From Bolinopsis microptera (lineage: Eukaryota > Ctenophora > Tentaculata > Lobata > Bolinopsidae), in contig NC_087082.1 in assembly GCF_026151205.1 (NCBI RefSeq), positions 584,401 to 648,400 of the forward strand: 64,000 nucleotides of DNA. Reading direction: 5' to 3'. The first letter of the stretch is position 1, and each line of letters starts with the position of its first letter. A program made the translations under genes and the position numbers. The notes beneath the pieces are model-generated. The model was not told the origin of the DNA. It saw only the letters and a list, made by a program, of their open reading frames with translations, and ran no database searches. This document shows positions 26,491-60,317 of the stretch, in pieces.

Positions 26491-29400
26491 TTACCGTTTG
26501 GACATAAAAGCGCGGGTTATAGTTTCAGTAGCACTTCGGTCGTCACCAACTTCATCCTCACCTCCACTGTCGTCATCAGAGCTGAGCCACTCTTGTGCTA
26601 TCTTCTCTTCCAACACCACTGCAGGCAATACAGGTATAAAACATGGACCTTGAAAGTTTAAACTATTGCATTACTATATTAGTACATATAATGAAAAAAT
26701 GAAAAAAGTAAAATGTACAGGAAAATTCTGTCACTTACTTCTTTCCTTCACAAATTTAGGAGTGCTGTCACAGAGCAGTTCGATGACTCTGACCGCCGCC
26801 CACACCAGGTTTTGGAACAGGAATATGAAGAGCATTCTCGCTAACATTAGCTCCAACCAAAATCTGGACTGATCTGCCCTGGCCGGTTGGATGTAGGACC
26901 AATATCTGGGAATAAAGAGATTAGTATTAGAACGAGGGAACTGACAGCGGGCAATAATACTGAAAAATAAACAGCTGACAGTGAAAATTAATAGTAAAAA
27001 GAATGAAGGTGCATTCTCTCAACTCTGGGTTGTAAAGATGGAAAAAACAAGTTAAACACTGACTATCACGTGACTTGTATGTAAGTATAGTGCTTGTTGA
27101 GAATGGGAACGGCTTCAATGCTTCATTCGCGGTCACTAAAATAATCAATCAGCTTCTAGCAACTTCTCGACTAAATCGAAAATGTGTTTACCTGCACGTT
27201 TGGTTTGTTTGAGATCCATCAGATTCTTCACGGACAAAGTCATGGCTAGCCAGCATGAAATCCACGTAGCTGCTCCCTTCGGTCTCGTAGTTACGCTTAT
27301 ATATCATTAACGGTAACCAATCAAAAGTAAATGCTATCAAAATAGCGTTCACAAGGATGGCTATTCGGGACAGAACTTCTAGAATGTTCATCCACGTTCC
27401 TGAGTGGATGAATTAGTTAGAGGTTATAAATTAGTTTTCTTATCAACTAGGTTACTATCAAAATATCATCAACTGTTCACCGTAAAGTAAAAACTGTATA
27501 CCTTACTCGGGAATATTATGACTGGGATAAAGTGGTGGGTTTTGGAAAATTCCGCCATATTTTCCCCGGTCATTAATTTTCCCAGTCATAAATTAACCCG
27601 CTATAATGTTCCCGAGTAAGGTAAACTAAAAGTAATACATTTTGATGCTTGGTGGGTTTTGGAAAATTCCGCCATATTTTTCCCGGTCATTAATTTTCCC
27701 AGTCATAAATTAACCCGCTATAATATTCCCGAGTAAGGTACTAAATACTAAATACTAAATATTGATTTTTATACATATACCAACATATAATACATGTATT
27801 ATCTTTTGTAATACTAAAAACAGTCACCTATTCCCTCGGATCTGAAGCCGATAGGTCTACGAACCCTCTTTACGTATCTGGTAGCATCCTGACGTAACTG
27901 AGAGGTCCACAGTCAAGTTACTTGAATAAATTAAAAGCTATCATTCCAAGCTATCGTGGCGGAATTTGTCGCAATATGGTAAAAATTTACAATCACAAAT
28001 CTAAATAGCGAATTTTTTAAATGTCAGCAAGAATATTGATGTCATGATATAATTGAATACGAAAAGCAGTACAATTTAAAATTGTTTTTTAATTTTATTA
28101 GGTTATATTACCTGCCATATGTTAATAAAGAGACAAATAAGGGGAGCAAGCGGGAAAGCAGTAACGAACATAGTTAGGAAACCTGTGTGAAATTGGAGTA
28201 AAATGAACACAATAATATACAAGCATTGATGTGTGAGAATAATCACTGTTACAATTAAAATTTTATTCTTAATCTTTGTTAATGAAAAATAATTCGGCAT
28301 TTACAAACAATTGCAGCTTACCAAGCTGAATGATGTTATTGACATACTCCTGGTACATCTCTGTAGGTTCAGCAAGTTCGAAATCTTGAACATATTGAGA
28401 TCTGGAGTTTTCTGGAGATGTTAAATTGAGTTAAAAATTGTAACTTAAAATTAACAACCCAATTCTAACTGAACAATGTTGATCAAGAGTATAATGATTG
28501 AACCATATTAAGGTTTTGTTTAATAATATACTCACTGAAGTCTTCAAGATTTTGTTTGGCCATGTTTTTCCACCTTTGAGCGAATTCACAGCAGCCAACA
28601 AAAGGAGAAAGTAACTTCAACTTCAACTCCTCCTGGATCCTGTTTATATTCAGGGTTCTGATTATGTCCTTTAGTATCGGGACCAGCTGTTTTACTGACA
28701 TGATTAATATCATCTGTATTGATACCTGTGTTGTTGGTTATCAGGTAAATTATAGTGGCAGTTATTTGTCAGTACGTATATAGAAAATCATGGATCATCA
28801 AACGGTATTTCGAAACTGGGAACCGAAAAGGAGGAGAAAGACACTCTCTCTGCATGCTACCGTACTGTGGAGGAAGAGCTGCTTAAACAGAAAATAAGTA
28901 AAGCTGAAAACGCAGCCGATAGATGCAAGAACAAAGAGAGCTGGAATCTTGTTAATGAGGTCAGTGGGAGAAAGAAGAAGCCATGTGGTCTTGTAGAAGG
29001 AGGTAGTAGAGAGGGTAGATTGAGAGCCTGGAAAGACCACTTTACCAAGCTACTTGGACAACCTCCAGTAGTCCCAAACGAAGAAGTGGACATACCAGTC
29101 GTACATCCACCACAAAACATCAGTGTGGATAAGTTCACCAAGACCGAACTGGAGGAGGCTACGAAATCGATTAAAGAAGGTAAGGCATTTGGAGAGGATG
29201 GAGTTGCCCCTGAAGTGCTGAAGAGGGTAGATGTTGATGATTTGATCCTTGACTTCTGCATTAAAGCACTAGTTGATGGCGATGTCCTGACCAATGGAAG
29301 CACCTAAACATTGTGCCTGTTCCAAAGAAAGGGAATTTGACCAAAGTAGATAACTATAGAGGTATTGCACTGACATCTATAGTGAGTAAGACTCTTAATA

Positions 29401-32400
29401 AGATGATACTGAACAGGATCAAACCTGCCGTGGAAGACATCTTGAGGATCAATCAGAACGGATTCAGAGAGAGTAGGTCAACAACTAGTCATATTCTTGG
29501 CCTAAGAAGGGTATTTGAGGGAGCCCGGGATAAAGATCTGACCGCGGTAATGCTCTTCGTTGATTTCAAGAAGGCATTCGACAGCGTGCACCGTGGACTC
29601 CTCATGAAGATCCTCCTGGCATATGGAATTCCCAAGGAGATTGTAGGCTTGATACAAAGAATGTATGCAGATACATTTGCTCGTGTGATTACCGAGGATG
29701 GTCTGAGTGAAGCATTCTTCATTCTAGCAGGAGTGATGCAGGGAGACACTTTGGCGCCCTACCTATTCATAATCGTAATTGACTACATTATGAGGGTGTC
29801 CCTAGAGGGAAGGGACTTTGGGTTTACTCTACACCCTAGAAGAAGCCGTCGCTATCCGGCAGTCAAGGTCACTGATGCGGACTTTGCTGACGACCTTGCT
29901 CTTATAACAGATAGTGTTGCGGAGGCACAAGATTTCCTCAGGAGTCTGGAACTGGCGGCCAACTCAGTTGGACTCCACCTCAACGAGGGGAAAACTAAGT
30001 ACATGGGAATCAACATAAGAGATGATGATAACCCGACTCTGGTTGCTGGGAGTGGGAAGAACATTGAGAAAGTCGATGACTTCGTATATTTGGGTAGTAG
30101 AATGAAGAGTTCGGAGAAGGACTTCGAAGTGAGGAAAGCTAAGGCATGGGGAGCGTGTCACCAGATGAAGCTTGTATGGAAGTCGGATATGCGTAGAGAT
30201 CTCAAGATACGACTGTTCCTGGCTACAGTCGAGTCCATCCTTCTATATGGCTCTGAAACATGGACTGTCAGCCAGACCCTCGCAAAACGTATTGATGGAT
30301 GTTATACGAGAATGCTGAGGATGGCACTGAACATTGACTGGAAAGAGCGGCAGACTAACGCCAAGGTGTATGGACACCTCATCAGAGCATCTGATAAGAT
30401 AGCTGCACGGAGGATGAGACTCGCAGGTCATTTAGCCAGACATGAAGAACTATTGAGTCATCAACTTCTCTTCTGGGAACCCCTTCAAGGACATCGTCGA
30501 AGGGGAAGACCACATCTCACATACATTGACATCCTTCGGAAGGACACGGGGCTTGACGACAGCAAAGAGATTAACAAACTCATGCTGGATAGACAGATTT
30601 GGAAGAAGACTATTTCTGTTCGGACGCTGAAGCCGCCCTAAGTCGAGTCGAAGTCGAACCGAAAATATGCGAATAAATAAGGACCTATATAATTAAGACT
30701 CGGTGTAATTTAAAAGATTAGTGAGGTAATGCCATTACCTCACTAACTAATTACTAACTAATTACTAACTGATTACTAACTAATTACCTCACTCATGCAC
30801 CCTCCAGGAGCACAGCCCTGTATCTTCAGTGAAGTTCCGTACAGATATCTCGGGTTAGATGGCGACGTTATACTGAAATACCGTTGTTATCAACTTTTAT
30901 TTTCCCTACTCTTGCCGAAGGCAAAAAGGTCGTAGGGAATAAGTAATCGGGTTTGGATATATGAGGTGGCCCGATGGACCTGCGATGATGACAAAAGTCT
31001 GCTCCTTCGCAATATAGACCATTCCCCTAAAATTAAGTTTATAGGAAGCGTCTGTTATGCTGCGCGCGACGCTAGCCATGTGTTAATTAATTACAGTGAA
31101 ATTCCTCCTTCGCAAAGTTATTTTCCGAAATTTTCTGGATCCTTTTTTGTTGATGCGCGGCGCTGCATTGGTCAAATAAATTGTCAATTTTTACCATGCA
31201 GGAATCCCACTCATTTATAAAAAAACATAGTATGTAAATATGGTGCACTTTTTTCCAGTCACACTTTTCACTCAAAAGAATTAATGGTACAAGTACATCG
31301 TAGGGAAAATTGATCGTGCGTGGCTTAACCGCGGCGAAATTCTTGTTATATTAGGATTTAGGGGTTACAATAAATTCAGCAATGTAATTAAAGATTTATC
31401 ATTACTAAGTGGCTCATCGTACTCACTTTCCCTTGAAGAAGGCAATATAGAACAAAGTGCTGTAGTAGTTGACAAACTCAAACAGGTAAATTTTAAAAGA
31501 AAGATGATTGTCGTGATCACGCTGTGTTCTGTGATTTTCCATGTTGGTTAACTTGTTCGCTATTATCCTGTACACCTGGTAACATTATCTGTGTAACTAT
31601 GGTAACTAGTAGTGTAACTATGGTAACTAGTAGTGTAACTATGGTAACTAGTACTAGTAGTGTTGGCTAACTTGTTCGCTATTATCCTGTACACCTGGTG
31701 AAGATCAGGAAATATTCATCAAATTTTTAAACCAGTCAAAAAACGTGAGTAAATTAATGCATCAGGTATTCAGTAATGGGAAAGTGTGGTTATTATTCCT
31801 CACAACGTTGTTGACGGAATAAAGGCTAACTTTCTCGACCTAACTGAAGACTTATCTATTAAGACTCACGTATGATAGGCAGATGATAAGCGTAGCGCTG
31901 AGACTTCCCGTCACACAAATAGCTATCTCATTAGCATATTTTCTAGTAAAAGGGTTGTAATCCTTGGCCCTTTGTATTGAAAGGCTTAGCGAGTAGTTGT
32001 AGACAGTTATTGTAAGGGTCATCATAACTGCCATAGCCAGCTGAAATCAGATAAATATATATTAGAAATAGATTAAAAATAGATTTTGAAAATAGATTTT
32101 AAAATAGATTTAAAAAAATAGAAGATTAAAATAGATTTCAATGCTAGACTTTATTACTAATATAGCTACTAACAAATATAGTGACTAACTGATATATAGC
32201 TACTAACTAATATAGCTACTAACTAATATAGCTACTAACTAATATAGCTACTAACTAATATAGCTACTAACTAATATAGCTACTTACTAATATAGCTACT
32301 AACTAATATATAGCTACTAACTAATATAATAATTTTATTGTGTATTAGAGGATCAAGAAATACCTCAAACAAAACTTACGAATTATCTAACATGGATGAT

Positions 32401-34785
32401 TTAGAATTTAACTCTTTCGAATCGAAAGTCAACTAATTTTTTCAGTCCCATGGACTGGGTTTTATTTTTGCAATGATGATTTTCATAATATATAACCTGT
32501 AATACTATTCTGTATATATCTAATTTCGTTTTCCAAAAAAAACAAACTAATATAGCTACTAACTAATATAGCTACTAACTAATATAGCTACTAACTAATA
32601 TAGCCACTAACTAATATAGCTACTAACTAATATAGCGACGACGGTGAACCCCAGGAAGTATTGAGGAAGTCTGTGTAGAAAGGTTATGTGTTGTTCTCTT
32701 GTCTTCGTTACATCATTCCATCGGAACACTTTAGTTTTGGTCAGTTTGTACTTTACCCTCACTTCTGCCTGAATGCAGAGTGAACTAAGAATATCTTGAA
32801 AAATTTAAAATTCGCATGACAGGGATGTGATGATGGTGAACTCATATTAAAATTGATATTATCAATATTTCATTTAATATAGTAGTGTAACTATGGCAAC
32901 TAGTAGTGTAACTATGGTAACTAGTAGTGTAACTATGGTAACTAGTAGTGTAACTATGGTAACTAGTAGTGTTACTATGGTAACTAGTAGTGTAACTATG
33001 GTAACTAGTAGTGTTACTATGGTAACTAGTAGTGTAACTATGGTAACTAGTAGTGTTACTATGGTAACTAGTAGTGTAACTATGGTAACTAGTAGTGTTA
33101 CTATGGTAACTAGTAGTGTAACTATGGTAACTAGTAGTGTAACTATGGTAACTAGTAGTGTAACTATGGTAACTAGTAGTGTAACTATGGTAACTAGTAG
33201 TGTAACTATGGTAACTAGTAGTGTAACTATGGTAACTAGTAGTTAATGTGCCTTACCGAAGCACTCCTACTGTTAGTTGTACCCCAGGTGTGTGCTATAG
33301 TACTCTGCTGTCGCTTCCAAAACGTCACGAATATCGCTAGCCAGGCCATCATGATTATAGAAAATACTATAACTGCACCGTTGTTAGCCACACTCGTTAT
33401 CTACAATGGAGAATCAATAATTCAAAATGTTTATTACAACGAGAACTGGCGAGTACATTATTAACGATGAACAGAAAAAAGTAAATATGAATGAAATAAG
33501 AACTTCTTGATTATTACACTGGTAGTGAAGCAATAGTCTGACAAATAAGTAGCGTTGCAGGTTCCATCTATATAGCAGTCCGCACACATCAAATATTTTT
33601 CCCCGCTTTCACAAATATGCCGTGCTGTGTCAGTCCAAGTCATCTGCAGCAGACCGTATATGAAAACAGCAGTTCCTGCTATAGCAGGTATCACCAGGGA
33701 CATGTTGTAGAATCCTGGAATACACACACCGGCTTTAGTGGGGACTACTCTAAAGGTTTTAAACGGACAAATTAAATTCAAGTGTTCCTAGATGTTTATT
33801 CGCTTATAGTATAGGTCCCAATGTTATTGCGGGTATGGTATTTCTTACTGCACACTACGGTGTTTTGGTGACATAATTCCGATATACTGAGCTACTCCTT
33901 GTATAATGTATATCTGGGTTTATTTAGAAGCATTCAATTCTACACAATTATGAATTGTTTGAAAAGATTTACATTTTTTAAATGTGTGAGTTTCTGAACA
34001 TCCAACTGTATCAGAAGCATGGAAAGTTTGTGACTGGATTCCATAAAAATTATTTGCTAAGTCTATGATGCTGATATCTCAGAAGAAATGTGACTCACCC
34101 ACCCCCCCCCCCCCCCCCCTAGCATGTGACTCACCCCCCCCCCCCCAGTATGTGACTCACCGACATAAGCAAAGTACATGGCAGTAACAGATCCGAAGTA
34201 GTTTCTCACAATGTTGAGGGGTTGGAACTTCCACTTCATATGAGACGAGCTCCAAAAGTACCGCAGTAACTTTCTGGGATTGTCTATCTGTTCTGAGGGC
34301 GAGGAGAGAGCTGTTACTGCTGATCTTGCTGGAAATGAAATAACCTGTTATCATAATCTGATATTTCAGAGCAAAAAGTTAAGACACAAGTGCCATACCT
34401 TCGATGTCGATCTCACTCCACTTTTGTTTTTTTCCAGAGACATCACATCTAATCTTATACCCTCCAGCATGTAGCGGGTATGCTGTTTCAAAACACCCCT
34501 CTCGGTACATGTCGCTCAGCTTGTAACCAGCTTTTAACTTGCTTTCATTTGCTTCTGGGTTTTCGAGAATCCTGAATACCTGGGAGAAACAGCATTACAA
34601 CATCTCGAGTACCAAGGAGACTGAATCAGTCCCTACCAGTCTCAGACTGATAGCGGGCAACATTAACATGATCAAACTGAACTGCAAGTAAGTTTGAAAT
34701 TCCGATTACAAGACCCACAAAAAGGTATTCAATATTAAAATATACTATACGTATTATATATAATAATATATATAATACTAATTAT

Positions 34786-34826
<41 letters not shown>

Positions 34827-37800
34827 ATTACCATTAGTGATCTCTCTGATCTGTTGTAGAACTCAGGGTCATCGTGACCAAGAAATTTAGTTTTCTTTGA
34901 GTAGTTGAACGGAGCTCGGATCGCTCTGTAAAGAAGATATTTGTGAGTAGTTAGTAGCTATATAAGTCTGTTGTATAGTCAGATACAAAACTTAATCTCT
35001 TTAAACCAGGTCAGATGGACAACAAAGATATCAAATGATCTGTATTAAATGATCTGTTCTGATAATTTGCCTTTCTCTAGACTTAGAGTTAGAGTTATAG
35101 AGTATGAGGTATAACTGTACTAAAGTATTTAAAAAACCTGGCGAGGAGATTGTCTTTAGTTAAGTTGAGTCTGTCATCGCTGCGATGTAGGATAGAAAAG
35201 ATAGCGTTCTCTATTTTAGTGGTCCACAACTTGTGATACCGTTCATTTTGGAAGGTAAGTTGTTTGAACGCAGCTGACTCTCTGTACTCGCTTTCACCTT
35301 TCTTCCTACCGTTCTCCATCTAGGTTTATAAATTGTTTAGATTCACAACTAAGCAAGAGCGAATAAACATAATACATATACATTATACATGTATCTATTC
35401 ACTAAAAGTCAAAACAAGCAGTCACTCTATTAATTTTAAAGAATCAAATCTGACTTAAAAATAATAAACATTTTAAATAACCTGCGCTTTTAATCTTGAA
35501 TCGTAGTCCCCCTCCGCATCAGAAGACTCTGACTTGAACTTGCCTATAACACTCTTCACAGCAGACTTCAGTGTCTGAGGAACGTACCTGGAAGCGTCAA
35601 ACGTTCTGCCCCTGTCTAAATCGTCATGTTCTGGAGGGGGCAGTTCGTAGAGACACTCATTGTACATAGCTATCATTCTGTCTACCGGTTTATCGTGCTC
35701 CAAGGTTAGAACAGCTCCTGAGGGCGGATAAATTAATCAGTGCTGGAAGAAAGATAAGCTTCAGAAATAAGGCATTCGGCCATGTCAGGAGTTCGTGTAA
35801 AGAGAGATAATCAGTAATCATGCTAATTGCTAATAGTGGGCGGGTTAAGAGAGTTAATTAGGTCCTTTGTAAAGACTTAAATAAGGATAATGTTAATTAC
35901 TGCGGTCTTTAGGTTACTTTGTAAAGACTTAAATAAGGGTAATGTTAATTACTGCGGTCTTTAGGTTACTTTGTAAAGACTTAAATAAGGATAATGTTAA
36001 TTACTGCGGTCTTTAGGTTACTTTGTAAAGACTTAAATAAGGGTAATGTTAATTACTGCGGTCTTTAGGTTACTTTGTAAAGACTTAAATAAGGGTAATG
36101 TTAATTACTGCGGTCTTTAGGTTACTTTGTAAAGACTTAAATAAGGATAATGTTAATTACTGCGGTCTTTAGGTTACTTTGTAAAGACTTAAATAAGGGT
36201 AATGTTAATTACTGCGGTCTTTAGGTTACTTTGTAAAGACTTAAATAAGGGTAACGTTAATTACTGCGGTCTTTAGGTTACTTTGTAAAGACTTAAATAA
36301 GGATAATGTTAATTACTGCGGTCTTTAGGTTACTTTGTAAAGACTTAAATAAGGGTAATGTTAATTACTGCGGTCTTTAGGTTACTTTGTAAAGACTTAA
36401 ATAAGGATAATGTTAATTACTGCGGTCTTTAGGTTACTTTGTAAAGACTTAAATAAGGATAATGTTAATTACTGCGGTCTTTAGGTTACTTTGTAAAGAC
36501 TTAAATAAGGGTAATGTTAATTACTGCGGTCTTTAGGTTACTTTGTAAAGACTTAAATAAGGATAATGTTAATTACTGCGGTCTTTAGGTTACTTTATAA
36601 AGACTTAAATAAGGGTTATGTTCTAATGATCGTATAACCCTTTGATTAAGTAGTTCTCATACAAGGTTTATATAAGTTTCATGATTTGCACACTGTATCT
36701 CGACATACACTGTATATCGTCACGCATGTTATATCGCCCTGTAGTAGAATGACTTACAGGCATTTTCTGCTCGATACACTAGGGACTCCAGATATTCCGT
36801 ATTTTTGACTGTAGGTATAATTCAAAGTGGTCCTGAGATAATTAGATTGAGTTTACGCGGTTGAAACCCAATTTAGGCCAAAACAACATGTTTTTTTATT
36901 TTTTTATTTTAGAGCAAGTTAATTTCGTTGGCATATCAGCAAAATTTTCACTAAAGTGTATTAGAACTAGCCTCACAAGATAGTATCAATATTGTGCTAA
37001 TATTGCAGGACTTCCCCTGTCAGAAATCCAATCGAATGGCGATATAAGGTTGTCAATATACAGTGTGATTTACTGTGATTACCAAGTTGCATGTATGAGC
37101 TTATAATGATTGCACTTTACAGTAGAGAACGGAGACAGAAAGCATTTGTTTTGACACGCGAACAGCTACCAACCAATCAGCTTGGAGTTAGATATGAACA
37201 AACCCCCTGGACACAACACAATTAACAAATGTTCGTTGGGAGAACCTATTAAACTACCACCATGTTATTGATTTTAGATTATGTTAGATTATAAAATACA
37301 CATGCATATCGGTTTTCGTACATAAACATAGGAAATAAAGACCAGCAATCTCATCAGCATCCTCTAATAATCCCAGCCATAATGAGAGGGTGATTCCACA
37401 GACAAGCAAAGAAATCGTTTATAATCATAATATCTGTAATATAACTCGGAAAATCAATCGAGCACAACATATGTCAGGTAATATGCACATAATATGTCAC
37501 ATGTCACGTGCAGCGAGCTGTTAACTTACGGATCCTGCCCCAATGATCCCTGCCCTCCATGTACCCACTAAGAGAAGGGTAGAGTCTGGGAGGGTGGGTA
37601 GAGTGGCGAGGAGGAGCTGGTTCAGACTGCTGCCGAGTAAAAGAGTGGGAGATTTCGGCTCCCTGTTGTGGTGCACTCCCCTCCGGCATTTCATCACATT
37701 CCTCACACTCTGCTATCACTTCAGCCTGTTCTATTGGACACACGGGTAAAGCTAAATCTGACACTAATATACACTGTATATACGTACTATAACACTGTGT

Positions 37801-40800
37801 ATAACACGGTGCCCAAATGTGCCCATCTTGGCCACCATGCACTAGCTAAGCAAGCGTACCTCGGAGAAATGCAAGAGAAACATGGTTGCTGTGATGATAG
37901 CACGTAAAAACCATGTTTCTCCGACACAACCCCGCAGTTCAGCGCTCACTTCATGGCAAGTATAGCGCTCATTTCATGGCAAGTTCAGCGCTCACTTCAT
38001 AGCAATAATATTTGCTACTTTTCGTGATCAACATTTCATCTCACAACGTTTGACCCTCAGTATTCACCCTAACCCAACCGCAACCCTAAGCCTAACACAA
38101 ATACCCAGACAGACCCAAAATTTGAATGTAGATGGGGTAAAACGTCGAATGATGAAATGTTCGTTCCAATCCAGACAAACCACTCGCTATATAACTCACA
38201 CAAAGTCACACAAACTCACACAAACTCACAACTCACACAAACTCACACATACTGATCACACAAACTCACAAAAACTCACACAAACTCACAACTCACACAA
38301 ACTCACACAAACTCACACAAACTGATCACACAAACTCACACATACTGATCACACAAACTCACACATACTGATCACACAAACTCACACAAACTCACAACTC
38401 ACACAAACTCACACATACTGATCACACAAACTCACACAAACTCACACAAACTCACACAAACTCACACAAACTGATCACACAAACTCACACAAACTCACAC
38501 ATACTGATCACTCAAACTCACACAAACTCACACAAACTCACACAAACTCACACAAACTCACACAAACTCACACAAACTCACATAAACTCACACAAACTCA
38601 CACAAACTCACACAAACTCACACAAACTGATCACACAAACTCACACAAACTCACACATACTGATCACACAAACTCACACAAACTCACACAAACTCACACA
38701 AACTCACATAAACTCACACAAACTCACACAAACTCACACAAACTCACACAAACTCACACAAACTCACACAAACTCACACATACTCACACAAACTCACACA
38801 AACTCATACAAACTCACACAAACTCACACAAACTCACACAAACTCACACAAACTCACACATACTGATCACACAAACTCACACATACTGATCACACAAACT
38901 CACACAAACTCACACAAACTCACACAAACTCACACAAACTCACACAAACTCACACAAACTCACACATACTGATCACACAAACTCACACATACTGATCACA
39001 CAAACTCACACATACTGATCACACAAACTCACACAAACTCACACAAACTCACACAAACTCACACAAACTCACACATACTCACACAAACTCACACAAACTC
39101 ACACAAACTCACACAAACTCACACAAACTCACACAAACTCACACATACTGATCACACAAACTCACACATACTGATCACACAAACTCACACAAACTCACAC
39201 AAACTCACACAAACTCACACAAACTCACACAAACTCACACATACTGATCACACAAACTCACACAAACTCACACAAACTCACACAAACTCACACAAACTCA
39301 CACAAACTCACACAAACTCACACATACTGATCACACAAACTCACACAAACTCACACAAACTCACACAAACTCACACAAACTCACATAAACTCACACAAAC
39401 TCACACAAACTCACACAAACTCACACAAACTCACACAAACTCACACATACTACTCACACATACTACTCACACATACTGATCACACAAACTCACACAAACT
39501 CACACAAACTCACACAAACTCACATAAACTCACACAAACTCACACAAACTCACACAAACTCACACAAACTCACACAAACTCACACAAACTCACATAAACT
39601 CACACAAACTCACACAAACTCACACAAACTCACACAAACTCACACAAACTCACATAAACTCACACAAACTCACACAAACTCACACAAACTCACACAAACT
39701 CACACAAACTCACACATACTGATCACACAAACTCACACAAACTCACACAAACTCACACAAACTCACACAAACTCACACAAACTCACACAAACTCACACAT
39801 ACTGATCACACAAACTCACACAAACTCACACAAACTCACACAAACTCACACAAACTCACATAAACTCACACAAACTCACACAAACTCACACAAACTCACA
39901 CAAACTCACACAAACTCACACATACTACTCACACATACTACTCACACATACTGATCACACAAACTCACACAAACTCACACAAACTCACACAAACTCACAT
40001 AAACTCACACAAACTCACACAAACTCACACAAACTCACACAAACTCACACAAACTCACACAAACTCACATAAACTCACACAAACTCACACAAACTCACAC
40101 AAACTCACACAAACTCACACAAACTCACATAAACTCACACAAACTCACACAAACTCACACAAACTCACTACTCACTACACGCACCCTGTTCGGACTTCTG
40201 TCGAGTGTAGAGGTCCCTGTCTTGGTGTAGTCGACGCTCCGTCCTCCAACCGCTCACTAGGTTATCTTGAGAAACAGGAGGTGTTTGGTGGATCACGGTG
40301 ACTAATGTGTCGTGCTATCATAGCTGCACTATCATATTCTATTTGTTTTATCTGCACTATCATATTCTATTTGTATTATCTGCACTATCATATTCTATTT
40401 GTCTGTAGACCAATATGATGGTACGGTCATGTTGGTAATCAGCCGTTAGTAGAAAAACAAAAAGGATTGCCATTGATGGCTCCAATGACCAATCTCAAAG
40501 TAAAGCCGCTTCAAATTTCAAATTATGTATTTATCATATACTTTTCACCTAGCTATAAGTGGCTTCTCTGTGTAGCTCTCTGATAGCGTAAAATAACGGT
40601 TCTATCAATATTTAAGCGTACCGATCTAAGAATTTCCAAGTCTACTGTTAAAAATAAAAGTAGCAAGCCAGATCTATCATCACTCTTGATGACTCTCACT
40701 CACCAAAAGGTGGCTCCACTGGTTTCATGAGCAGGAACTTTTCTGCCCAGTTGTCCATTGCGTAATCAGTTCCACATATTTTGATCGCTCTATACTCCTC

Positions 40801-48710: not shown

Positions 48711-49012
48711 CAGTGCTGCACGCCGCCGTTTTTTCAAAACGGCGGCAGCGTGGTTAACATCGTCGGCGGCGTAATCGGCGTTAGGTCACGTAATTTCACA
48801 GATTAAATTTTCCTCTTATAGAATAATGCCATGCACGGAGAGCAATTTTAACAGTTTTTTGACACGAGGCTCGTAATATCATTATTTGTGAGTTCGCGTC
48901 GTTCAAAAGATTCTTGCCAAAATTACGAAACGGTGCATAAACAGGTTCAAGCCGTTTGAAAACGGCGGCGGCGGGGTGGCCGGAAAATAATAGGCGGCGG
49001 CGTGCAGCACTG
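48711..49012. mobile_element. hAT-like MITE with 8-bp TSD
   Basis: TIRs CAGTGCTGCACGCCGCCG (48711-48728) and its complement ending at 49012. Flanks ATCGACCT (48703-48710) and ATCGACCC (49013-49020) match at 7 of 8. A CAGTG start plus 8-bp duplication is the hAT pattern. 302 bp, no frame. Confidence 0.85.
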
Positions 49013-49205
49013 ATCGACCCGAACGCAACCCAAAGAGATTTTTACAGCATGTGATTGATGTACCTTATCGGACCTATGGCTATTTGCTGGACGTCCTAAT
49101 ATATATTATATAAGTAGATGGTCCCTTATAAGCAATTATATGGTCATTATCAAGTATAGTATAGTATAGCGTTGATACTATTTAGCATAGCATTTTATGG
49201 TAATT

Positions 49206-49500
49206 AGGGGGGTGGGTGGGGGGTGGGGGGATCATGAGTATTTTTGAATCTGAGAATTTGACCATTTTCGTCAGGATTACTCAAAAATGTCCCAAAAATT
49301 ATTTTTGAATCTGAGAAATTCGGTATGGATTTCTCATTATCTCAAAAATTGTCCACTCAAAAATATTGATATACCAAATCATTCTTCATTTCAGTGCAAT
49401 GTGGTCCAAAAATAAATAATTTTTGAGAATGAGAATTTGGCCATTTTCGTCAGGACTCTCAAAAATACTCATGATTTCCCCCCCCCCCCCCCCCCCCTAA
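49206..49500. mobile_element. Inverted-repeat element with G/C-tract ends
   Basis: Left end G-tracts then ATCATGAGTATTTTTGA; right end CAAAAATACTCATGAT then a C-tract. CCATTTTCGTCAGGA occurs once in each half in the same orientation. Flanks TAATTA on both sides suggest a TA/TWA or TAATTA target. 295 bp. Confidence 0.75.
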
Positions 49501-49815
49501 TTAGCATAGCAGTTGATGGATATCATCAAGACGGCAAAAATCACCATCTATGAATTATATTTCGATTCGATTGTTTTACAATCGATTCTTCATTGTTATT
49601 TAGGCCTGAGGTCGAGTAAGGGAAAGGGCACGGACTACGTCGAACAAATGAAAATGCGTTCAATATCAAAATAAAATATCAAATGATATAGAAGTTCACA
49701 TAATAATTATATTTACCCTCAATAAAGAAGAAGAGAAGTAAAGCATTCGAGTAAAAGTAGATACTAGATCTACTAGATTTAAGGCAGAGTGTTCTCCTGA
49801 AGTAAAGGGACTTTG

Positions 49816-50102
49816 GATTCTTCTTCTTTTTACTTCGTCCGTCTTCTTTTTACTTCGTCCTTCTTCTTTTTACTTCGTCCGTCTTCTTTTTACTTCGTCC
49901 TTCTTCTTTTTACTTCGTCCGTCTTCTTTTTACTTCGTCCTTCTTCTTTTTACTTCGTCCGTCTTCTTTTTACTTCGTCCTTCTTTTTTTTACTTCGTCC
50001 TTCTTCTTTTTACTTCGTCCTTCTTCTTTTTACTTCGTCCTTCTTCTTTTTACTTCGTCCTTCTTCTTTTTACTTCGTCCTTCTTCTTTTCACTTCGTCC
50101 GT
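49816..50102. repeat. 20-bp minisatellite, about 14 copies
   Basis: Unit TCTTCTTTTTACTTCGTCCG/T. The open frame (LLFTSSFFF...) is a repeat artefact. It starts from the ACTTCGTCCGTCG motif that is also present in the 3' flank of gene A. Confidence 0.92.
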
Positions 50103-50453
50103 CGCTGAGTACCTGCGAGTGTTGTAGTATAAATAGTTTAAATACTTAAATAAAGATAGAAATTTGGACAGAATGATCCAAAATTTCAAAAATGGTCTTA
50201 AAGCACTTTTGTCAGAAAACGGCAGAGTTATGCATGTGGTATAATTAATAAAGAATAAACTTGAAAGCATTATCTGTCTTTAAAAGTGAAAGAGAACTGT
50301 CTACCAAAAACAAGAATTTTATAAAGAATTTCCCACGACCCAAACATTGCAATTGCATGTCCCTTTTCGGCCGCTTTTGCACTGATGCGCGATTAAAAGG
50401 GCATACAACGTGTGCCAAGCAAGACAAAATGCAGTTGAAAACATAAGAGCATA

Positions 50454-53400
50454 TTACCGTTTAGCAGGTTCCCCCTCAAGCCACTCTTGTGCAATCTCTT
50501 CTTCTAGCACCACTAAAGGTAAACGTAATATTTACTTTTAGTGTGTTACTGTGTTTACCACACTAATGTTTAACACACTTAATTAACGGATCTGTATCCA
50601 TTTATAGCGATAATCAGAGCTTAGTCTAGATATTTATACGTCATCACTCTCAAAATTAGCAAAAGAATAATATATTTTAAAGAGTAGGATAAAAACGCCA
50701 GTTTTCTAAAATGTCATATAAGGTATGGACAACATTTCTCCATCAGTATAGGGTAAGGAAATTACTTACTTCTTTCCTTCACATATTTAGGAGTACTACC
50801 ACGACGTAGTTCAATCATCTTTACTGCGCCCAACACCATGATTTGGAACAGGAATATGAAGAGCATTCTCGCTAACATTAGCTCCAACCGAAACCTGGAC
50901 TGATCTGCCCTGGCCGGTTGGATGTAGGACCAATATCTGGGAATAAAGAGATTAGTATTAGAACGAGGGAACTGACAGCGGGCAATAATCCTGGAAAATA
51001 AACAGCTGACAGCGAGAATGAATAGTAAAAAGAATGAAGGTGCATTCTCTCAACGATGGGTTGTAAAGATGGAAAAAACAAGTTAAACACTGACTATCAC
51101 GTGACTTGTATATAAGTATAGTGCTTGTTGAGAATGGGAACGGCTTCATTCGCGGTCACTAAAATAATCAATCAGCTTCTAGCAACTTCTCGACTAAATC
51201 GAAAAAGTGTTTACCTGCACGTTTGGTTTGTTTGAGATCCATCAGATTCTTCACGGACGAAGTCATGGCTAGCCAACATGAAATCCACGTAACTGCTCCC
51301 TTCGGTCTCGTAGTTACGCTTATATATCATTAACGGTAACCAATCAAAAGTAAATGCTATCAAAATAGCGTTCACAAGGATGGCTATTCGGGACAGAACT
51401 TCTAGAATGTTCATCCACGCTCCTGATAAAAAAGGTGCATTAGCTTTTTGTCACCACCTATATCCTCAGTTCTAATCCTCAGTATTCTACAGTAACTCAC
51501 CTATATCCTCAGTTTTAATCCTCAGTATTCTACAGTAACTCACCTATATCCTCAGTTCTAATCCTCAGTATTCTACAGTAACTCACCTTTATCCTCAGTT
51601 CTAATCCTCAGTATTCTACAGTAACTCACCTATATCCTCAGTTTTAATCCTCAGTATTCTACAGTAACTCACCTTTATCCTCAGTTCTAATCCTCAGTAT
51701 TCTACAGTAACTCACCTATATCCTCAGTTCTAATCCTCAGTATTCTACAGTAACTCACCTATATCCTCAGTTCTAATCCTCAGTATTCTACAGTAACTCA
51801 CCTATATCCTCAGTTCTAATCCTCAGTATTCTACAGTAACTCACCTATACCCTCAGTTTTAAATCCGATGGGTCTACGAACTCTCTTGACATATCTCGTA
51901 GCGTCCTTGTGTCGCTGACAGGGGGGGGGGTCATGTTACAAGTTCATAGTTAAGATTTTAGAGCAAATCGAATGCTATAATTTCAAGCAATCATGGTGGA
52001 CATAAAGTCCCTATCGTTATCAGTGCTCCTTAATATGATCACCATGTGCATGAGAAACTATGGTGCCATTTCAGTAGACGAAAGAGGTATCCTTACCTTC
52101 GATAATTGTGAAAAAGATGGCATCAGTGGGAAATGGCTATTTTTTAATGAAAGCAAGAGATTATTGAATACGAAAAGCAGTACAATTTAAAATTGTTTTT
52201 TAATTTAATTAGGTTATATTACCTGCCATATATTAATAAAGAGACAAATGAGGGGAGCTAGCGGGAAAGCAGTAACGAACATAGTTAGGAAACCTGTGTG
52301 AAATTGGAGTAAAATGGACACAATAATATACAAGCATTGATGTGTGAGAATAATTACTGTTGCAATTAAAATTTTATTCTTAATCTTTGTAAATAAAAAA
52401 TAATTCGGCATTTACAAACAATTGCAAAACCAACTTACCAAGCTGAATGATGTTATTGACATACTCCTGGTACATCTCTGTAGGTTCAGCAAGTTCGAAA
52501 TCTTGAACATATTGAGATCTGGAGTTTTCTGGAGATGTTAAATTGAGTTAAAGATGTTAACTTAAAATTAACAACCCAATACTAACTGAACAATGTTGAT
52601 CAAGAGTATAATGATTGAACCATATTAAGGTTTTGTTTAATAATATAACAAATTGCTTATACTCACTCAAGTCTTTAAGATTTTGTTCTGCCATGTTTTT
52701 CCACCTTTGAGCGAATTCACAGCAGCCAACAAAAGGAGAAAGTAACTTCAACTTCAACTCCTCCTGGATCCTGTTTATATTCAGGGTTCTGATTATGTCC
52801 TTCAGTATCGGTACCAGCTGTTTTACTGACATGATTAATATCATCTGTATTGATACCTGAGTTGTTTTATTCGTTATCTAAACAAGCAGGGAGGTTATAA
52901 CCAGATGAACGCATGGCTGATCTGATTCAGAGAGAAGACTTTAAAAGGAGTTACCTCGCTCATGCAGCCCCCAGGAGCGCAGCTCTCTATCTTCATTGAA
53001 TTGCCATATACATACCTCGGGTCTGCTGGCGACGTTACACTGAAATAGTATGTATATCATCAATGTCTGATTCAAAGTTCAAACGAGACTTAAAATCAAT
53101 TCAGCAATGTAAAAGATATATCATTACTAAGTGGTTCAGCTCATACTCACTTTCCCTTGAAGAAAGCAATATAGAACAGAGTGCTGTAGTAGTTGACAAA
53201 CTCAAACAGGTAAATTTTAAAAGAAAGATGATTGTCGTGGTCACGCTGTGTTCTGTGGTTTTCCCTGTCCGTTAACTTGTTTGCTATTATCCTATACACC
53301 TGGTAACATTATCTGGTAGTGTAAATATGGTAACTAGTAGTGTAACTATGGTAACTAGTAGTGCAGCTATGGTAACTAGTAGTGTAACTATGGTAACTAG

Positions 53401-56400
53401 TAGTGTATCCGATTCATTATAATGTATCCAACTTTTAAACAATGCATCAACTAATCTGTACTACGAAAGTTAAATCTCGGTCCTCATTTCGCTGTTATGA
53501 CAGAATTCCTTACTGAAACTGAAACATAACGGGATCTGGGGGACGGGCCCTTGTGTAAAATATTAACCTAAAACTAATTTATTATATTACTCAACACTCA
53601 CGTATGATAGGCAGATGATAAGCGTAGCGCTGAGACTTCCTGTCACACAATTAGCTATCTCATTAGCATATTTTCTGGTAAAAGGATTGTAATCCTTGGC
53701 CCTTTGTATTGAAACGCTCAGCGAGTAGTTGTAGACAGTTATTGTGAGGGTCGTCAGTGTAGCCATTGCCAGCTGCAATCAAGAAAAGGAGTTATAAAAT
53801 CTTAATTTCTGTAAATTATGAAAAGCATTTAAATAAGTTTGCCAGATGGGGTTGGTGTATCAGAAATAGTCATTTGAACTTACAAATATAGCGACGAAAG
53901 TGAAGGCTTGGATGTATTTGGGAAGTCTATGGAGAAAGGTCATGTGCTTCTCTCTTTTCTTCGTAATTTTGTTGTACTTGTATCGCAACACGTTTGTATT
54001 GGTCAGTTTGTACTTCACCCTCACTTCTGCCTGAACGCAGAGTGAACTTAGTATATCTTGCAAAGTGTAAACATCACAATCTGACTTCCAACAGAGATGA
54101 TGAGCTCACGCAGCTCACATTAACAAACTGATATGAATATCAATATTTCTTGAAGTCAGCTGCCTTACCGAAGCGCTTCCACTGTTAGTTGTACCCCAAC
54201 TGTGCGCTATAATACTCTGCTGCCGCTTCCAAAACGTCAAGAACATCGCTAACCAGATCATCATGATTATAGAAAATACTATAACTGCACCGTTGTTAGC
54301 CACACTCGTTATCTAGAACAGAGAATCAATAATTCAACATCATCACGATGAGGGCTTCAGTTTATATCATTAAAGCATTTACAGCGTCTAACGTATCCTG
54401 TCTAAAATTATTACTGGTTGCACAAACCAAAAAATGTAAAGATTCAGTATTATAATGATTAATTATACAATGAAAGGTGAATGAATGTAATGTTTGATTA
54501 TTACACTGGTAGTGATGCAATAGTCTGACAAATAAGTAGCGTTGCAGGTTCCATCTATATAGCAGTCCGCACACATCAAATATTTTTCCTCGCTTTCACA
54601 AATATGCCGTGCTGTGTCAGTCCAAGTCATCTGCAGCAGACCGTATATGAAAACAGCAGTTCCTGCTATAGCAGGTATCACCAGGGACATGTTGTAGAAT
54701 CCTGGAATACACACACCGGCTTTAGTGGGGACTGGCTTGGTAATTGGTATTACTATTAAAGTGATACATCTACTACAAAACGTTCAGACATGTATTTATA
54801 GATTTATTTAGTTGTTTCAGAAGAATGCATAATTTTGAAGAAGTGCCAAGAGTAGGTATGTAGGTTGTCTATTTGCTAGTATGTGGGGGGGGGGGGGGGG
54901 TACACTACAAAAAGGCAAAAAGTGTAAAAAAGTGTAGTGTACTTACCGATATAAGCGAAATACATGGCAGTACCAGAACCAAAGTAGTTTCTCACGATGT
55001 TGAGGGGTTGGTACTTCAAATTCATCTTGGAAGAGCTCCAAAAGTACCGCAGTAACTGTCTGGGATTGTCTATCTGTTCTGAGGGCGAGGAGAGAGAGCT
55101 GTTACTGCTGATCTTGCCGGAAATGAAACCAACTGTTATCATAATCTGATCTTTCAGAGTAAAAAGTTAAGAGACAAGTGTCATACCGATGTTGATCTCA
55201 CTCCACTTTTGTTTTTTTCCAGAGACATCACTTCTAATCTTATACCCTCCAGCATGTAGCGGATATGCTGTTTCAAAACACCCCTCTCGGTACATATCGC
55301 TCAGCTTATAATCTTTATCGTCATCTAATTCTGGGCTTTCACTTAATGAGTTTAACTTTCGATATTTCTTTTGTTTTTCGTCATCTGTCTCTGGGTTTTC
55401 GAGAATCCTGAATACCTGTGAGAAACATAGTTGCATGTATAGCTTTTAAGACGAAAAGCTAGAATTTTTCACTTATTTTTAAATGATATATTCCGATTAA
55501 AAACTCCTTATGAATTTTACCATTAACGCTCGCTCTGAAGCGGTGTAAAATTTAGCAGGATCGTCGTGACCGAGAAACTGTTTTCCTTTGGATACCCTGA
55601 ACGGCGCTCGAATGGCTCTGTGATGGAGAAATGTCGGTGAGTTGATATTATATATTATATCAATTATATATAAACTAATAGCCTGTTCAAACCAGGCTAC
55701 ATAACATGAACACTTTGTTGTAACTTGCATGAAAAGCATTCATATGCTTGCTTTTAAACTGAATCATATGGCCGATAAGAATATCGAGATTCGAGTCATA
55801 CATTTTAATGAACATTCTTTACAGTCTTTGGATTCAGATATCTTCAGAATTACTTAGATATTCAACAAGAACCTGATCAGTGGATTGTCTTTAGTTAACT
55901 TAAGCCTGGGATCGTGCCCATATAAGGCATCAAAGATGAAGTTCTCTATTTTGGTAATCCATTTCTTGCTGTGCCATTTGTTTTCAGAGATAAGCTGTAT
56001 GAACGCATCTGACTTTTTGTACTCTTTGTACTTCTTCTTCAACTGAATTCATCAATTCGATCAGACTCACAACAGCAAGCGAGTGTATAATAATATATCC
56101 ATATTTAAAGAATCAATTCTGACTCATTAATATTAAGAATAAATATCTGAAATCACCTGCGCTTTTAATTTTGTTTCGAAGTCCTCCTCCCCATCATGAG
56201 ATTTTGGCTTGATCTTGCGATACATAAAATCCGTCGCTGATTTCAAGGTCGGAACACACCTAGATGGAAGGAATAATGTCCTATAAGAACCTTCTATATC
56301 ATCATGTTCTGGTGGAGGTGGTAGTTCGTAGAGACTCTCATTGTACTTGGCTATCATTCTGTCCACCGCCTTCCCGTGTTTCAGGTGCAGAACAGATCCT

Positions 56401-59400
56401 GGGACAGATAACAGATTATAGACAGAACATTTTAGGAGATAAAAGATTAGATATTAAAGGATCATGAATCATCTTGTATGCTCATTTGCTGATCCTTTTC
56501 AAAATATTCCTAACTCTCACTCACCTAAGGGTGGCTCAACTGGTTTCATGAGCAGGAACTTTTCAGCCCAAAAGTCCATAGCTGTATTGGTTCCCCATAT
56601 TTTTATCGCTCTATACTCCTCAAACTTGGAACGGAAATTCTGGAGAATGTCTTAAAATTATGGGGGGGGGGGGGGGGGGGGGGGGGGTGGTTAAAATAAC
56701 CTTTTTTAAGACACTCTGCTATGCAGATAAAATCAAAGATTGAAAGATTGAAAGCGTGATCTCCGATTTGGAAACATTCCGACTCTACAACTCATGAACT
56801 GCTACTATATATACACGCTAATGTTCCGACTCTACAACTCATGAGCTAATGGCTAAATATTCCTTATCTTAAGAAGTAAGAACTAAGAAAATAAGACCAA
56901 AAACCTCAATTTCTATTTCAAGGCCATTTTCCCGGAGAAGCTTTATGTACTCAATTCTCATGACGGCTTGTTTGTCTCCTTCCTTCCCTTTCTTCGACTC
57001 CTCATAGTCCTCCTTATCTGTTCGTCTGGGATTAGGATCCCCTGAGGGTTTGTTAGCTGAAAACTTCTCAACCGTTTGTTGTATAGTGTTTGAACCAAAT
57101 ATTATTTTGCCAGCAAGCAAAACTTAGAGCTTGCTTTAAAACATATATCTAAAGTTTCACGTGTTTGGATATTGTATTTGCTGATTAGAATCTAACCTGT
57201 GGTGAGTGTAGCTGTGTTGTGTCTTACAGCTGCTGTACTAACCTGTAGTGAGTGTAGCTGTGTTGTGTCTTACAGCTGCTGTACTAACCTGTAGTGAGTG
57301 TAGCTGTGTTGTGTCTTACAGCTGCTGTACTAACCTGTAGTGAGTGTAGCTGTGTTGTGTCTTACAGCTGCTGTACTAACCTGTAGTGAGTGTAGCTGTG
57401 TTGTGTCTTACAGCTGCTGAACTAACCTGTAGTGAGTGTAGCTGTGTTGTGTCTTACAGCTGCTGTACTAACCTGTAGTGAGTGTAGCTGTGTTGTGTCT
57501 TACAGCTGCTGTACTAACCTGTAGTGAGTGTAGCTGTGTTGTGTCTTACAGCTGCTGTACTAACCTGTAGTGAGTGTAGCTGTGTTGTGTCTTACAGCTG
57601 CTGTACTAACCTGTAGTGAGTGTAGCTGTGTTGTGTCTTACAGCTGCTGTACTAACCTGTAGTGAGTGTAGCTGTGTTGTGTCTTACAGCTGCTGTACTA
57701 ACCTGTAGTGAGTGTAGCTGTGTTGTGTCTTACAGCTGCTGTACTAACCTGTAGTGAGTGTAGCTGTGTTGTGTCTTACAGCTGCTGTACTAACCTGTAG
57801 TGAGTGTAGCTGTGTTGTGCCTTGCAGCTGCTGTACTAACCTGTAGTGAGTGTAGCTGTGTTGTGTCTTGCAGCTGCTGTACTAACCTGTAGTGAGTGTA
57901 GCTGTGTTGTGTCTTACAGCTGCTGTACTAACCTGTAGTGAGTGTAGCTGTGTTGTGTCTTACAGCTGCTGTACTAACCTGTAGTGAGTGTAGCTGTGTT
58001 GTGTCTTACAGCTGCTGTACTAACCTGTAGTGAGTGTAGCTGTGTTGTGTCTTACAGCTGCTCTACTAACCTGTAGTGAGTGTATCTGTGTTGTGTCTTA
58101 CAGCTGCTGTACTAACCTGTAGTGAGTGTAGCTGTGTTGTGTCTTACAGCTGCTGTACTAACCTGTAGTGAGTGTAGCTGTGTTGTGTCTTACAGCTGCT
58201 GTACTAACCTGTAGTGAGTGTAGCTGTGTTGTGTCTTACAGCTGCTGTACTAACCTGTAGTGAGTGTAGCTGTGTTGTGTCTTACAGCTGCTGTACTAAC
58301 CTGTAGTGAGTGTAGCTGTGTTGTGTCTTACAGCTGCTGTACTAACCTGTAGTGAGTGTAGCTGTGTTGTGTCTTACAGCTGCTGTACTAACCTGTAGTG
58401 AGTGTATCTGTGTTGTGTCTTACAGCTGCTGTACTAACCTGTAGTGAGTGTAGCTGTGTTGTGTCTTACAGCTGCTGTACTAACCTGTAGTGAGTGTAGC
58501 TGTGTTGTGTCTTACAGCTGCTGTACTAACCTGTAGTGAGTGTAGCTGTGTTGTGTCTTGCAGCTGCTGTACTAACCTGTAGTGAGTGTAGCTGTGTTGT
58601 GTCTTGCAGCTGCTGTACTAACCTGTAGTGAGTGTAGCTGTGTTGTGTCTTACAGCTGCTGTACTAACCTGTAGTGAGTGTAGCTGTGTTGTGTCTTACA
58701 GCTGCTGTACTAACCTGTAGTGAGTGTAGCTGTGTTGTGTCTTACAGCTGCTGTACTAACCTGTAGTGAGTGTATCTGTGTTGTGTCTTACAGCTGCTGT
58801 ACTAACCTGTAGTGAGTGTAGCTGTGTTGTGTCTTGCAGCTGCTGTACTAACCTGTAGTGAGTGTAGCTGTGTTGTGTCTTACAGCTGCTGTACTAACCT
58901 GTAGTGAATGTAGCTGTGTTGTGTCTTGCAGCTGCTGTACTAACCTGTAGTGAGTGTAGCTGTGTTGTGTCTTGCAGCTGCTGTACTAACCTGTAGTGAG
59001 TGTAGCTGTGTTGTGTCTTGCAGCTGCTGTACTAACCTGTAGTGAGTGTAGCTGTGTTGTGTCTTGCAGCTGCTGTACTAACCTGTAGTGAGTGTAGCTG
59101 TGTTGTGTCTTGCAGCTGCTGTACTAACCTGTAGTGAGTGTAGCTGTGTTGTGTCTTGCAGCTGCTGTACTAACCTGTAGTGAGTGTAGCTGTGTTGTGT
59201 CTTACAGCTGCTGTACTAACCTGTAGTGAGTGTAGCTGTGTTGTGTCTTACAGCTGCTCTACTAACCTGTAGTGAGTGTAGCTGTGTTGTGTCTTACAGC
59301 TGCTGTACTAACCTGTAGTGAGTGTAGCTGTGTTGTGTCTTACAGCTGCTGTACTAACCTGTAGTGAGTGTAGCTGTGTTGTGTCTTGCAGCTGCTGTAC

Positions 59401-60317
59401 TAACCTGTAGTGAGTGTAGCTGTGTTGTGTCTTGCAGCTGCTGTACTAACCTGTAGTGAGTGTAGCTGTGTTGTGTCTTACAGCTGCTGTACTAACCTGT
59501 AGTGAGTGTAGCTGTGTTGTGGTCTTACAGCTGCTGTACTAACCTGTAGTGAGTGTAGCTGTGTTGTGTCTTACAGCTGCTGTACTAACCTGTAGTGAGT
59601 GTAGCTGTGTTGTGTCTTACAGCTGCTGTACTAACCTGTAGTGAGTGTAGCTGTGTTGTGTCTTGCAGCTGCTGTACTAACCTGTAGTGAGTGTAGCTGT
59701 GTTGTGTCTTACAGCTGCTGTACTAACCTGTAGTGAGTGTAGCTGTGTTGTGTCTTACAGCTGCTGTACTAACCTGTAGTGAGTGTAGCTGTGTTGTGTC
59801 TTACAGCTGCTGTACTAACCTGTAGTGAGTGTAGCTGTGTTGTGTCTTACAGCTGCTGTACTAACCTGTAGTGAGTGTAGCTGTGTTGTGTCTTACAGCT
59901 GCTGTACTAACCTGTAGTGAGTGTAGCTGTGTTGTGTCTTACAGCTGCTGAACTCTGGGAGGTTCTTTCCACGGGTTTGTAGACCAGCACAAAGTCGATA
60001 TTTTTATTCTTTTCAACTGACCAAGGCACATAGTTCAAGTTTCCTACTGCATCTGCCACCAACTGAAAATAATAAGTAAGCATTACAACACTGTACTAAC
60101 ACTAGGTAGGTAACACGCCACAACTGAACATTCCCAGTGAGCGGGGTATTGATATTACCGCAACTTAGTGTTTTACAGCAAATTCTGGTAATTAATATTT
60201 AGATCTGCGATTTGACTGAAAAGTATTTCTAATAAAATTTGCCTTTTTGTAATTTTGTCTGAGTTTTCTCCATCTTTGAGCTGCACTTATGGTGTCCGTA
60301 TCTGATACCCCTGCCAT
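50454..60317 (-). CDS. Anoctamin (TMEM16) family protein, gene B, 22 exons
   Basis: Upstream tandem paralogue of gene A. Exons, 5' to 3': 60243-60317, 59912-60062, 56905-57041, 56525-56639, 56157-56398, 55873-56042, 55521-55617, 55187-55415, 54947-55132, 54505-54701, 54169-54312, 53884-54030, 53602-53772, 53151-53200, 52955-53039, 52667-52844, 52439-52528, 52223-52293, 51845-51914, 51215-51422, 50770-50936, 50454-50512. Sum 3039 nt, about 1012 aa, phases close. Evidence: exon-for-exon match to A; NIDFVLVYKP; YQPLNIVRNYFG; FYNMSLVIPAIAG; six-Cys loop; FLTMFVTAFPLAPLICLF; DATRYVKRVRRPIG. Exon lengths 4, 10, 11, 13-21 equal those of A; exons 5-9 and 12 differ by indels. Exon 1 needs a GC donor (AAAAAG-GCAAAT), the only in-phase option I found. 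Exon 2 ends inside the first unit of a 46-bp array. The C-terminus is short (EGEPAKR). Ca2+ ligand positions are altered as in A. Exon 1 is the least certain part. Confidence 0.88.
51453..51856. repeat. 43-bp minisatellite spanning the exon-19 donor of gene B
   Basis: Unit CTATATCCTCAGTTCTAATC + CTCAGTATTCTACAGTAACTCAC, about 9.4 copies. On the minus strand each copy reads AACTGAGGATATAG-GTGAGTTACTG, matching the exon-19 end and its donor. Gene A has a single GGGAATAG-GTGACTG. Confidence 0.9.
53316..53405. repeat. 21-bp repeat, short array in intron 13 of gene B
   Basis: Four copies of the GTAACTATGGTAACTAGTAGT unit, shared with gene A at 31600-31665. Confidence 0.75.
56661..56687. repeat. 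Poly-G tract in intron 3 of gene B
   Basis: Run of about 26 G then TGG. A second G run is at 54884-54900 in intron 9. Lengths are uncertain in any assembly. Confidence 0.8.
57197..59948. repeat. 46-bp minisatellite, about 60 copies, filling intron 2 of gene B
   Basis: Unit AACCTGTAGTGAGTGTAGCT + GTGTTGTGTCTTACAGCTGCTGTACT. On the minus strand each unit contains CTACAG-GTTAGT, the exon-2 donor, and a second GCAGCT-GTAAGAC. The exon-proximal unit supplies the in-phase donor at 59911/59912. Variants TTGCAG, TATCTG, GCTCTAC and one inserted G at about 59521. Confidence 0.95.

Follow-up and report, generated by a model that had tools for sequence, protein, structure and literature searches.

Why should tandem repeats within the introns of a gene begin time and again at the edges of its exons? 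The question is raised by a window of 64,000 nucleotides from the genome of the ctenophore Bolinopsis microptera (584401-648400 of contig NC_087082.1, or C11, 20,825,282 bases; positions below are those of the window unless stated otherwise). It holds two anoctamin-7-like genes, A and B, and a preliminary description had claimed that in six of their introns the repeated unit contains both the exon edge and the splice site, suggesting either a shared mechanism focused on junctions or the retention of tolerated or useful decoy sites. We found that 8 of 25 curated array events, in A, B and three further paralogues, overlap a splice junction, six of the eight being in A or B. A unit lying across the exon-intron boundary, which is what characterises the 'mirage' minisatellites of amphioxus, is found in these eight events, spread over the five paralogues. 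We consider it quite likely that the arrays are mirages, i.e. tandem duplications that chanced to span a boundary and then grew and shrank in the ordinary way.

Arrays on the splice junctions of five anoctamin genes

The two genes of the window are the following.

26263..41731, minus strand: gene A, anoctamin-7-like; spliced alignment to P0002 gives 23 exons and 0 stops; nearest paralogue, C
50475..60317, minus strand: gene B, an anoctamin-7-like paralogue, placed by spliced alignment

Exons were placed with our own spliced aligner, A on the database protein model P0002 and B on P0001, each carrying the name anoctamin-7-like [Bolinopsis microptera]; exons 1-2 of B were placed by hand. P0002 is closer to C than to A, and P0001 closer to D than to B. 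The contig carries five anoctamin paralogues, three of them outside the window: C at 664.7-683.3 kb of the contig, E at about 691-700.7 kb, where nothing matches ahead of mid-exon 10, and D, which is on the opposite strand, at 7,254.5-7,265.4 kb. Compared with solved structures, the draft B protein matches anoctamins, the best being anoctamin-1 (E-value 7.2e-72). Intron position and phase are identical across A, C and D throughout, in B from exon 3 and in E from exon 10 where placed. The uncertain exons are 1 and 2 of B and the last two of E.

Arrays were detected with Tandem Repeats Finder (TRF). Those on junctions in the window are listed with the associated features; a bar in a motif marks the splice site.

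57192..59954, minus strand: 46-bp unit, 60 copies, across the exon 2 donor of B (TRF); 59 exact copies of CTACAG|GTTAGT
59912..60062, minus strand: exon 2 of B with its putative phase-compatible end at unit 1, ACTACAG|GTTAG (sequence count; comparison with D)
51455..51862, minus strand: 43-bp unit, 9.5 copies, across the exon 19 donor of B (TRF); AG|GTGAGTT in every copy counted
41340..41514, minus strand: 43-bp unit, 4.1 copies, across the exon 2 acceptor of A (intron 1; TRF); 30 exonic nt; not in C
34108..34161, minus strand: 26-bp unit, 2.1 copies, at the exon 9 donor of A (TRF); GTGAGTCACAT plus poly-G, 1 exonic nt
32545..32636, minus strand: 16-bp unit, 5.8 copies, across the exon 12 donor of A (TRF); 9 exonic nt; common to C
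32156..32328, minus strand: further block of the 16-bp exon 12 donor unit, deeper in intron 12 of A (TRF)
30742..30787, minus strand: 11-bp unit, 4.2 copies, starting with base 1 of A intron 15 (TRF); common to C

Two more lie outside the window, both in C: one at the acceptor of intron 7 (a 37-mer, 83.8 copies) and one at the donor of intron 13 (a 31-mer, 2.0 copies). The eight thus comprise six donors and two acceptors, with unit lengths of 11, 16, 26, 31, 37, 43, 43 and 46 bp. The exonic share of the unit is 8 to about 41 nt in six of them, 1 nt in intron 9 and 0 in intron 15 by TRF; introns 9 and 15 of A are hence the weaker cases. In intron 9 of C, two copies of GTGAGTCACAT flank the poly-G run. 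The units of the intron 15 array repeat GTAAT, and its far end consists of the 11 junction bases AGTGAG|GTAAT, in A as in C.

All six introns named in the preliminary description are therefore among the eight, with the reservations just given for exons 9 and 15 of A. The exon 19 donor of B (unit 1 with 18 nt of exon, array common to E and D), the exon 12 donor of A and the exon 2 acceptor of A are as it had them, and at each of the six junctions the other of the two genes keeps a single ordinary one, as it had also said. For exon 2 of B the array stands and the donor needs correcting. GCAGCT|GTAAGA would end the exon at 59943, in phase 0; the donor that would fit the phase is the first ACTACAG|GTTAG, making the exon some ten codons longer than in D. 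Comparison with D places the ancestral donor, GTTAGATT, at the 3' extremity of the array, away from the exon. Our computations carried bounds of 60061 and 59950 or 59914 for this exon, a few bases off. In exon 1 of B (60243-60317), the donor kept in D has been lost through a small indel, so that the 5' end of B may be defective and the gene possibly is decaying.

Most arrays are not common to all paralogues, and those that are shared differ in copy number between them: intron 19 has 9.5 copies in B, 14.4 in E and 6.8 in D, intron 11 has 17.3 vs 4.3, and intron 15 has 4.2 vs 6.2.

Birth and placement of the arrays

Where did the units come from? Four of the eight were searched as patterns in the whole genome (264,652,675 bases, i.e. 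264.65 Mb, in 232 contigs). With up to 2 mismatches, all 59 matches of the B intron 2 unit fall within its own array, and all 30 of the intron 19 unit in B, E and D. All 83 matches of the C intron 7 unit are inside these genes, and the 24 exact matches of the dimer of the intron 12 unit are all in A and C. Since the four are confined to these genes, they arose locally, from the junction. Insertion of a dispersed element at the junctions is ruled out for these four units, private to the gene family; it does hold for a 21-mer to which we return below.

The earlier proposal that the arrays grew from duplications holding the exon edge and the splice site is thus borne out, and intron 13 of C seems to catch the process at its start. 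There, an exact duplication of 31 bp has given two copies of 25 exonic and 6 intronic bases, found single in A, B, E and D. We read it as a snapshot of an array beginning, the freshest case of all. In intron 7 of C, inspection by eye indicates that the unit fuses the initial 8 bases of exon 8 with the upstream intron at a common ATTCAG; the two source places are still apart in A, which has one junction. Such a joint is as would be expected of a microhomology-driven duplication. At the unit joint of A intron 1 there is, again by eye, a common AAC.

One might suspect an artefact, with exon ends misplaced or arrays created by assembly errors. The exon ends do come from alignment, the lengths of arrays can err in assemblies, and 5,100 unknown bases lie beside the window. 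Yet exon ends and phases agree across paralogues and the frames are open. In addition, the inner copies bear substitutions of their own, some of like kinds in B and E. We hold this explanation to be highly improbable.

Alternatively, some mutational process directed at junctions, e.g. R-loops or repair at exon edges, might seed arrays there preferentially; a mechanism focused on junctions was one option of the preliminary description. This calls for a null expectation. The introns of the five genes gave 50 TRF rows with a score of 50 or more; 10 were dropped and the other 40 merged by unit and intron into the 25 events. Those dropped are the poly-C of B intron 3, the poly-G of C intron 9, the (CTA)n of A intron 7, a 6-mer of C intron 4, an 11-mer of E intron 19 and five rows of E intron 22, whose downstream exon is doubtful; one of the five reaches 68 bases into that exon. 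The remaining dropped rows overlap no junction, and dropping them favours an excess. In the null, a seed of the unit's length falls anywhere in the gene except wholly within an exon, intron lengths being either the gene's own after collapsing the arrays or the shortest among paralogues. Random seeding then yields 5.1 junction events with own lengths (P 0.099) and 8.0 with the shortest ones (P 0.589), where eight were observed. Scoring introns 9 and 15 as misses leaves six (P 0.396 and 0.880), and the events of A or B alone, 6 of 17, give P 0.122 and 0.473. Because the introns are short, overlap with a junction is common under random seeding. The arrays as such are beyond chance, but for their position on junctions this is not clear. 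No special targeting need be invoked, since seeds scattered at random over short-intron genes would land on junctions about as often as observed.

Some results pull the other way and count against a purely random placement. Without the dispersed 21-mers, 8 of 22 events are on junctions where 4.5 are expected with own lengths (P 0.040), although the shortest lengths restore agreement (P 0.451). The 17 interior arrays lie at a mean relative distance of 0.407 from the nearest edge vs 0.5 if uniform (P 0.093; edge distances of three of them were collapsed by hand), and the list of events is our own curation. A strong lean of arrays to the edges is not seen; there may be a weak one. The exonic part of the unit, ranging from 0 to about 41 nt, has no common register visible, which does not favour targeting either. 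On balance, a mechanism focused on junctions appears unlikely, and this part of the earlier interpretation is not retained.

Choice among repeated splice sites

If the duplications are random, how can a gene live with them? We suggest that they are tolerated because splicing can use the copy next to the exon; among the options of the preliminary description, tolerated decoys would be the one to keep. In the scenario we favour, a tandem duplication takes in the end of an exon and the adjoining splice site, as seen in intron 13 of C and presumably elsewhere. The exon-proximal copy, first in a row of donors and last in a row of acceptors, would stay in use, so that the protein is unchanged and the spare copies join the intron. 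Slippage or unequal exchange would then alter copy number and homogenise the inner copies, with selection keeping the coding copy.

Intron 19 agrees with this turnover. In B, E and D alike its exon-proximal copy is GAGGGTATAG, a reading that none of the inner copies found with up to 3 substitutions shows (0 of 8 in B, 0 of 13 in E, 0 of 7 in D). Hence, the coding copy is held and the inner copies drift together. Open frames and protein models are consistent with the exon-proximal site; by eye, the models of B. microptera and Mnemiopsis cross the junctions without extra residues, exon 2 of B apart. No junction unit has a length divisible by 3. Exon definition would favour the exon-proximal site. 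A and C, with a synonymous divergence (dS) of 0.090, a non-synonymous divergence (dN) of 0.006 and dN/dS of 0.06 over 1039 codons, are clearly under constraint, and B vs D has dS 0.073 and dN/dS 0.58 (927 codons, exons 3-21). Random seeding and tolerance together are enough to explain the arrays.

This scenario has its own difficulties. Use of the exon-proximal site is what we infer from sequence, P0001 and P0002 being database models. In intron 7 of C, some 84 strong acceptors far upstream might capture splicing, which the scenario has to account for, as exon definition might. Finally, the fitting donor of B exon 2 would add about ten residues to the protein.

Could the repeated sites instead do something in splicing, with AG|GT serving as acceptor and donor, stepwise removal of the intron, or buffering and regulation? 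The numbers are suggestive in the longest arrays: intron 2 of B offers 59 copies of CTACAG|GTTAGT, intron 7 of C has 84 copies of the CCCAG|GTATTC motif (true acceptor included, up to 3 substitutions), and AG|GTGAGT copies fill intron 19 of B, E and D. AG|GT is kept in all matches listed for these three (59, 83 and 30, respectively). Dual-specific sites in tandem repeats are, according to the part of that study considered here, used in human UBC (PMC10809524). Yet these are the only three of the eight junction arrays with AG|GT in every unit counted. In intron 15 of A and C it is confined to unit 1 and the far end, and it is not a feature of each unit in A intron 1, A intron 9, A/C intron 12 and C intron 13. 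AG|GT is moreover a common donor context in these genes, seen at 10 of 22 in A, and, as unit lengths are not multiples of 3, retention of one or two inner copies would change the reading frame. The restriction of most arrays to some paralogues also speaks against a function, which we judge improbable. Recursive splicing as a general rule fails on the same count of three in eight.

A narrower version concerns the long AG|GT arrays by themselves (B intron 2, C intron 7 and B/E/D intron 19), which could be working ladders whose intron is taken out by random jumps between copies. We give it a small chance. Were it true, the same mRNA would result whichever AG|GT copies served as steps, so the arrays might lengthen freely.

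Other repeats, known systems and implications

The same introns contain further arrays.

32880..33243, minus strand: 21-bp array, 13 bases into intron 11 of A (TRF); dispersed family
31591..31653, minus strand: 21-bp family, 15 bases ahead of the exon 14 acceptor of A (TRF)
53316..53407, minus strand: 21-bp family, 16 bases ahead of the exon 14 acceptor of B (TRF)
34786..34826, minus strand: (CTA)13.7 run, 5 bases into intron 7 of A (TRF)

Exons 7 and 11 of A had been said to have donors abutting arrays, and the distances of 5 and 13 bases agree; but the arrays are the (CTA)n run and the dispersed 21-mer. The latter belongs to a family found in intron 11 of A and C, in intron 13 and in intron 15 of D. 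A 34-base pattern of it has 834 matches in the genome (434 + 400 by strand), with 0 for the backwards control, and the intron 11 array is not evidently seeded on the junction. Among the matches listed, all but two of those on contig C1 are within its first 1.45 Mb of 26.2 Mb, and those on contig C2 start at base 1,861, densely in the first 3.2 kb. This density near the starts of C1 and C2, among the matches listed, resembles that of a subtelomeric repeat. A unit that includes a donor-like GTGAGT, TGTGTGAGTT (transcript strand), is repeated about 190 times in intron 4 of A (38193-40168) and 28 times in C.

Around the window, 51,506 of 214,000 bases (5,100 of the latter unknown) lie in arrays, vs 3,404 of 50,000 at 7.23-7.28 Mb of the contig. 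Comparison of these two stretches suggests repeat-rich contig ends, the window being an example; its location near the contig start may add to the junction arrays. In another ctenophore, Hormiphora, TRF marked 13% of the genome, in the portion of the report considered (PMC8527503). Upstream of B, G-rich repeats at 60916-61159 (GGGGTGTAGGAAGCGGGGGG, plus strand) could form G-quadruplexes, and about 70 copies of a 39-bp unit occupy 23192-25922, downstream of A and outside placed exons. Intron 15 of A has reverse-transcriptase-like frames, by eye, at 28756-30641 (plus strand) and measures 2062 bp vs 249 bp in C; hence a retroelement probably inserted there after the split of A and C. More such frames at 5323-7893 and 17824-20368 (both minus strand; by eye) make the surroundings seem transposon-rich. 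Apart from the anoctamins, the stretches examined have 64 coding-like frames, mostly transposon-like, with one PDIA6-like gene, as judged by eye.

How do the junction arrays compare with known systems? Introners are repeated sequences that make introns and occur across many genes; the four junction units searched are, in contrast, private to one gene family. The preliminary description knew of no described system of this kind, but amphioxus mirages have the same arrangement (PMC3087553, PMC3902484). In the sections of these two papers considered here, mirages are minisatellites with units across the exon-intron boundary, on the donor or the acceptor side, in Adh3 and the globins BflGb6 and BflGb9 (PMC3087553) and also in TnC, with similar repeats in PGBD5 (PMC3902484). 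Units measure 10-72 bp in Adh3 and about 150-160 in the globins, array length is unstable between alleles or in the soma, and reverse-transcription polymerase chain reaction (RT-PCR) supports normal splicing. The arrays of Bolinopsis share the boundary-spanning units, the differences in copy number (here between paralogues) and inner units that are alike while the boundary unit differs (PMC3087553, PMC3902484), and their unit lengths of 11-46 bp are in the minisatellite range. They differ in belonging to the ctenophore phylum, in numbering several per gene, in reaching about 60 and 84 copies vs 3 and 6 in two BflGb6 haplotypes, and in that normal splicing, backed by RT-PCR in amphioxus, is what we infer here.

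Other likenesses are looser, as far as the cited parts of these studies go. Of human introns, 792 lie within tandem repeats, with AG|GT sites working both ways; the dual-specific sites of UBC and VCX3A also sit in head-to-tail units with AG|GT as potential acceptor or donor (PMC10809524). Unlike here, the UBC units are coding and in frame, whereas the inner units of Bolinopsis are intronic on our reading, have lengths that are not multiples of 3 and carry AG|GT throughout in three of eight arrays. Intron gain of the Rogers type, via tandem duplication, likewise yields duplicated splice signals (PMC4974935); among the introns placed here there is, by contrast, no new position, existing ones being merely lengthened. 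We found no report of boundary-spanning repeats, minisatellites or intron repeats of this kind in ctenophores among the titles and abstract starts that our searches of open-licence papers listed. The arrays are thus of a known kind, the mirage, in a new phylum, yet an extreme set.

With these observations, the mirages of amphioxus gain a counterpart in comb jellies, possibly the sister lineage of all other animals. Stages of the phenomenon are visible together, from a newborn of two copies through medium arrays and arrays shared by paralogues to some 60 and 84 near-identical sites, and the five paralogues allow the events to be ordered. Automated gene models in such genomes may fail at these junctions. 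More generally, duplications spanning junctions can accumulate in a constrained gene, and the anoctamins of Bolinopsis are a natural experiment on how the spliceosome chooses one among many equal sites.

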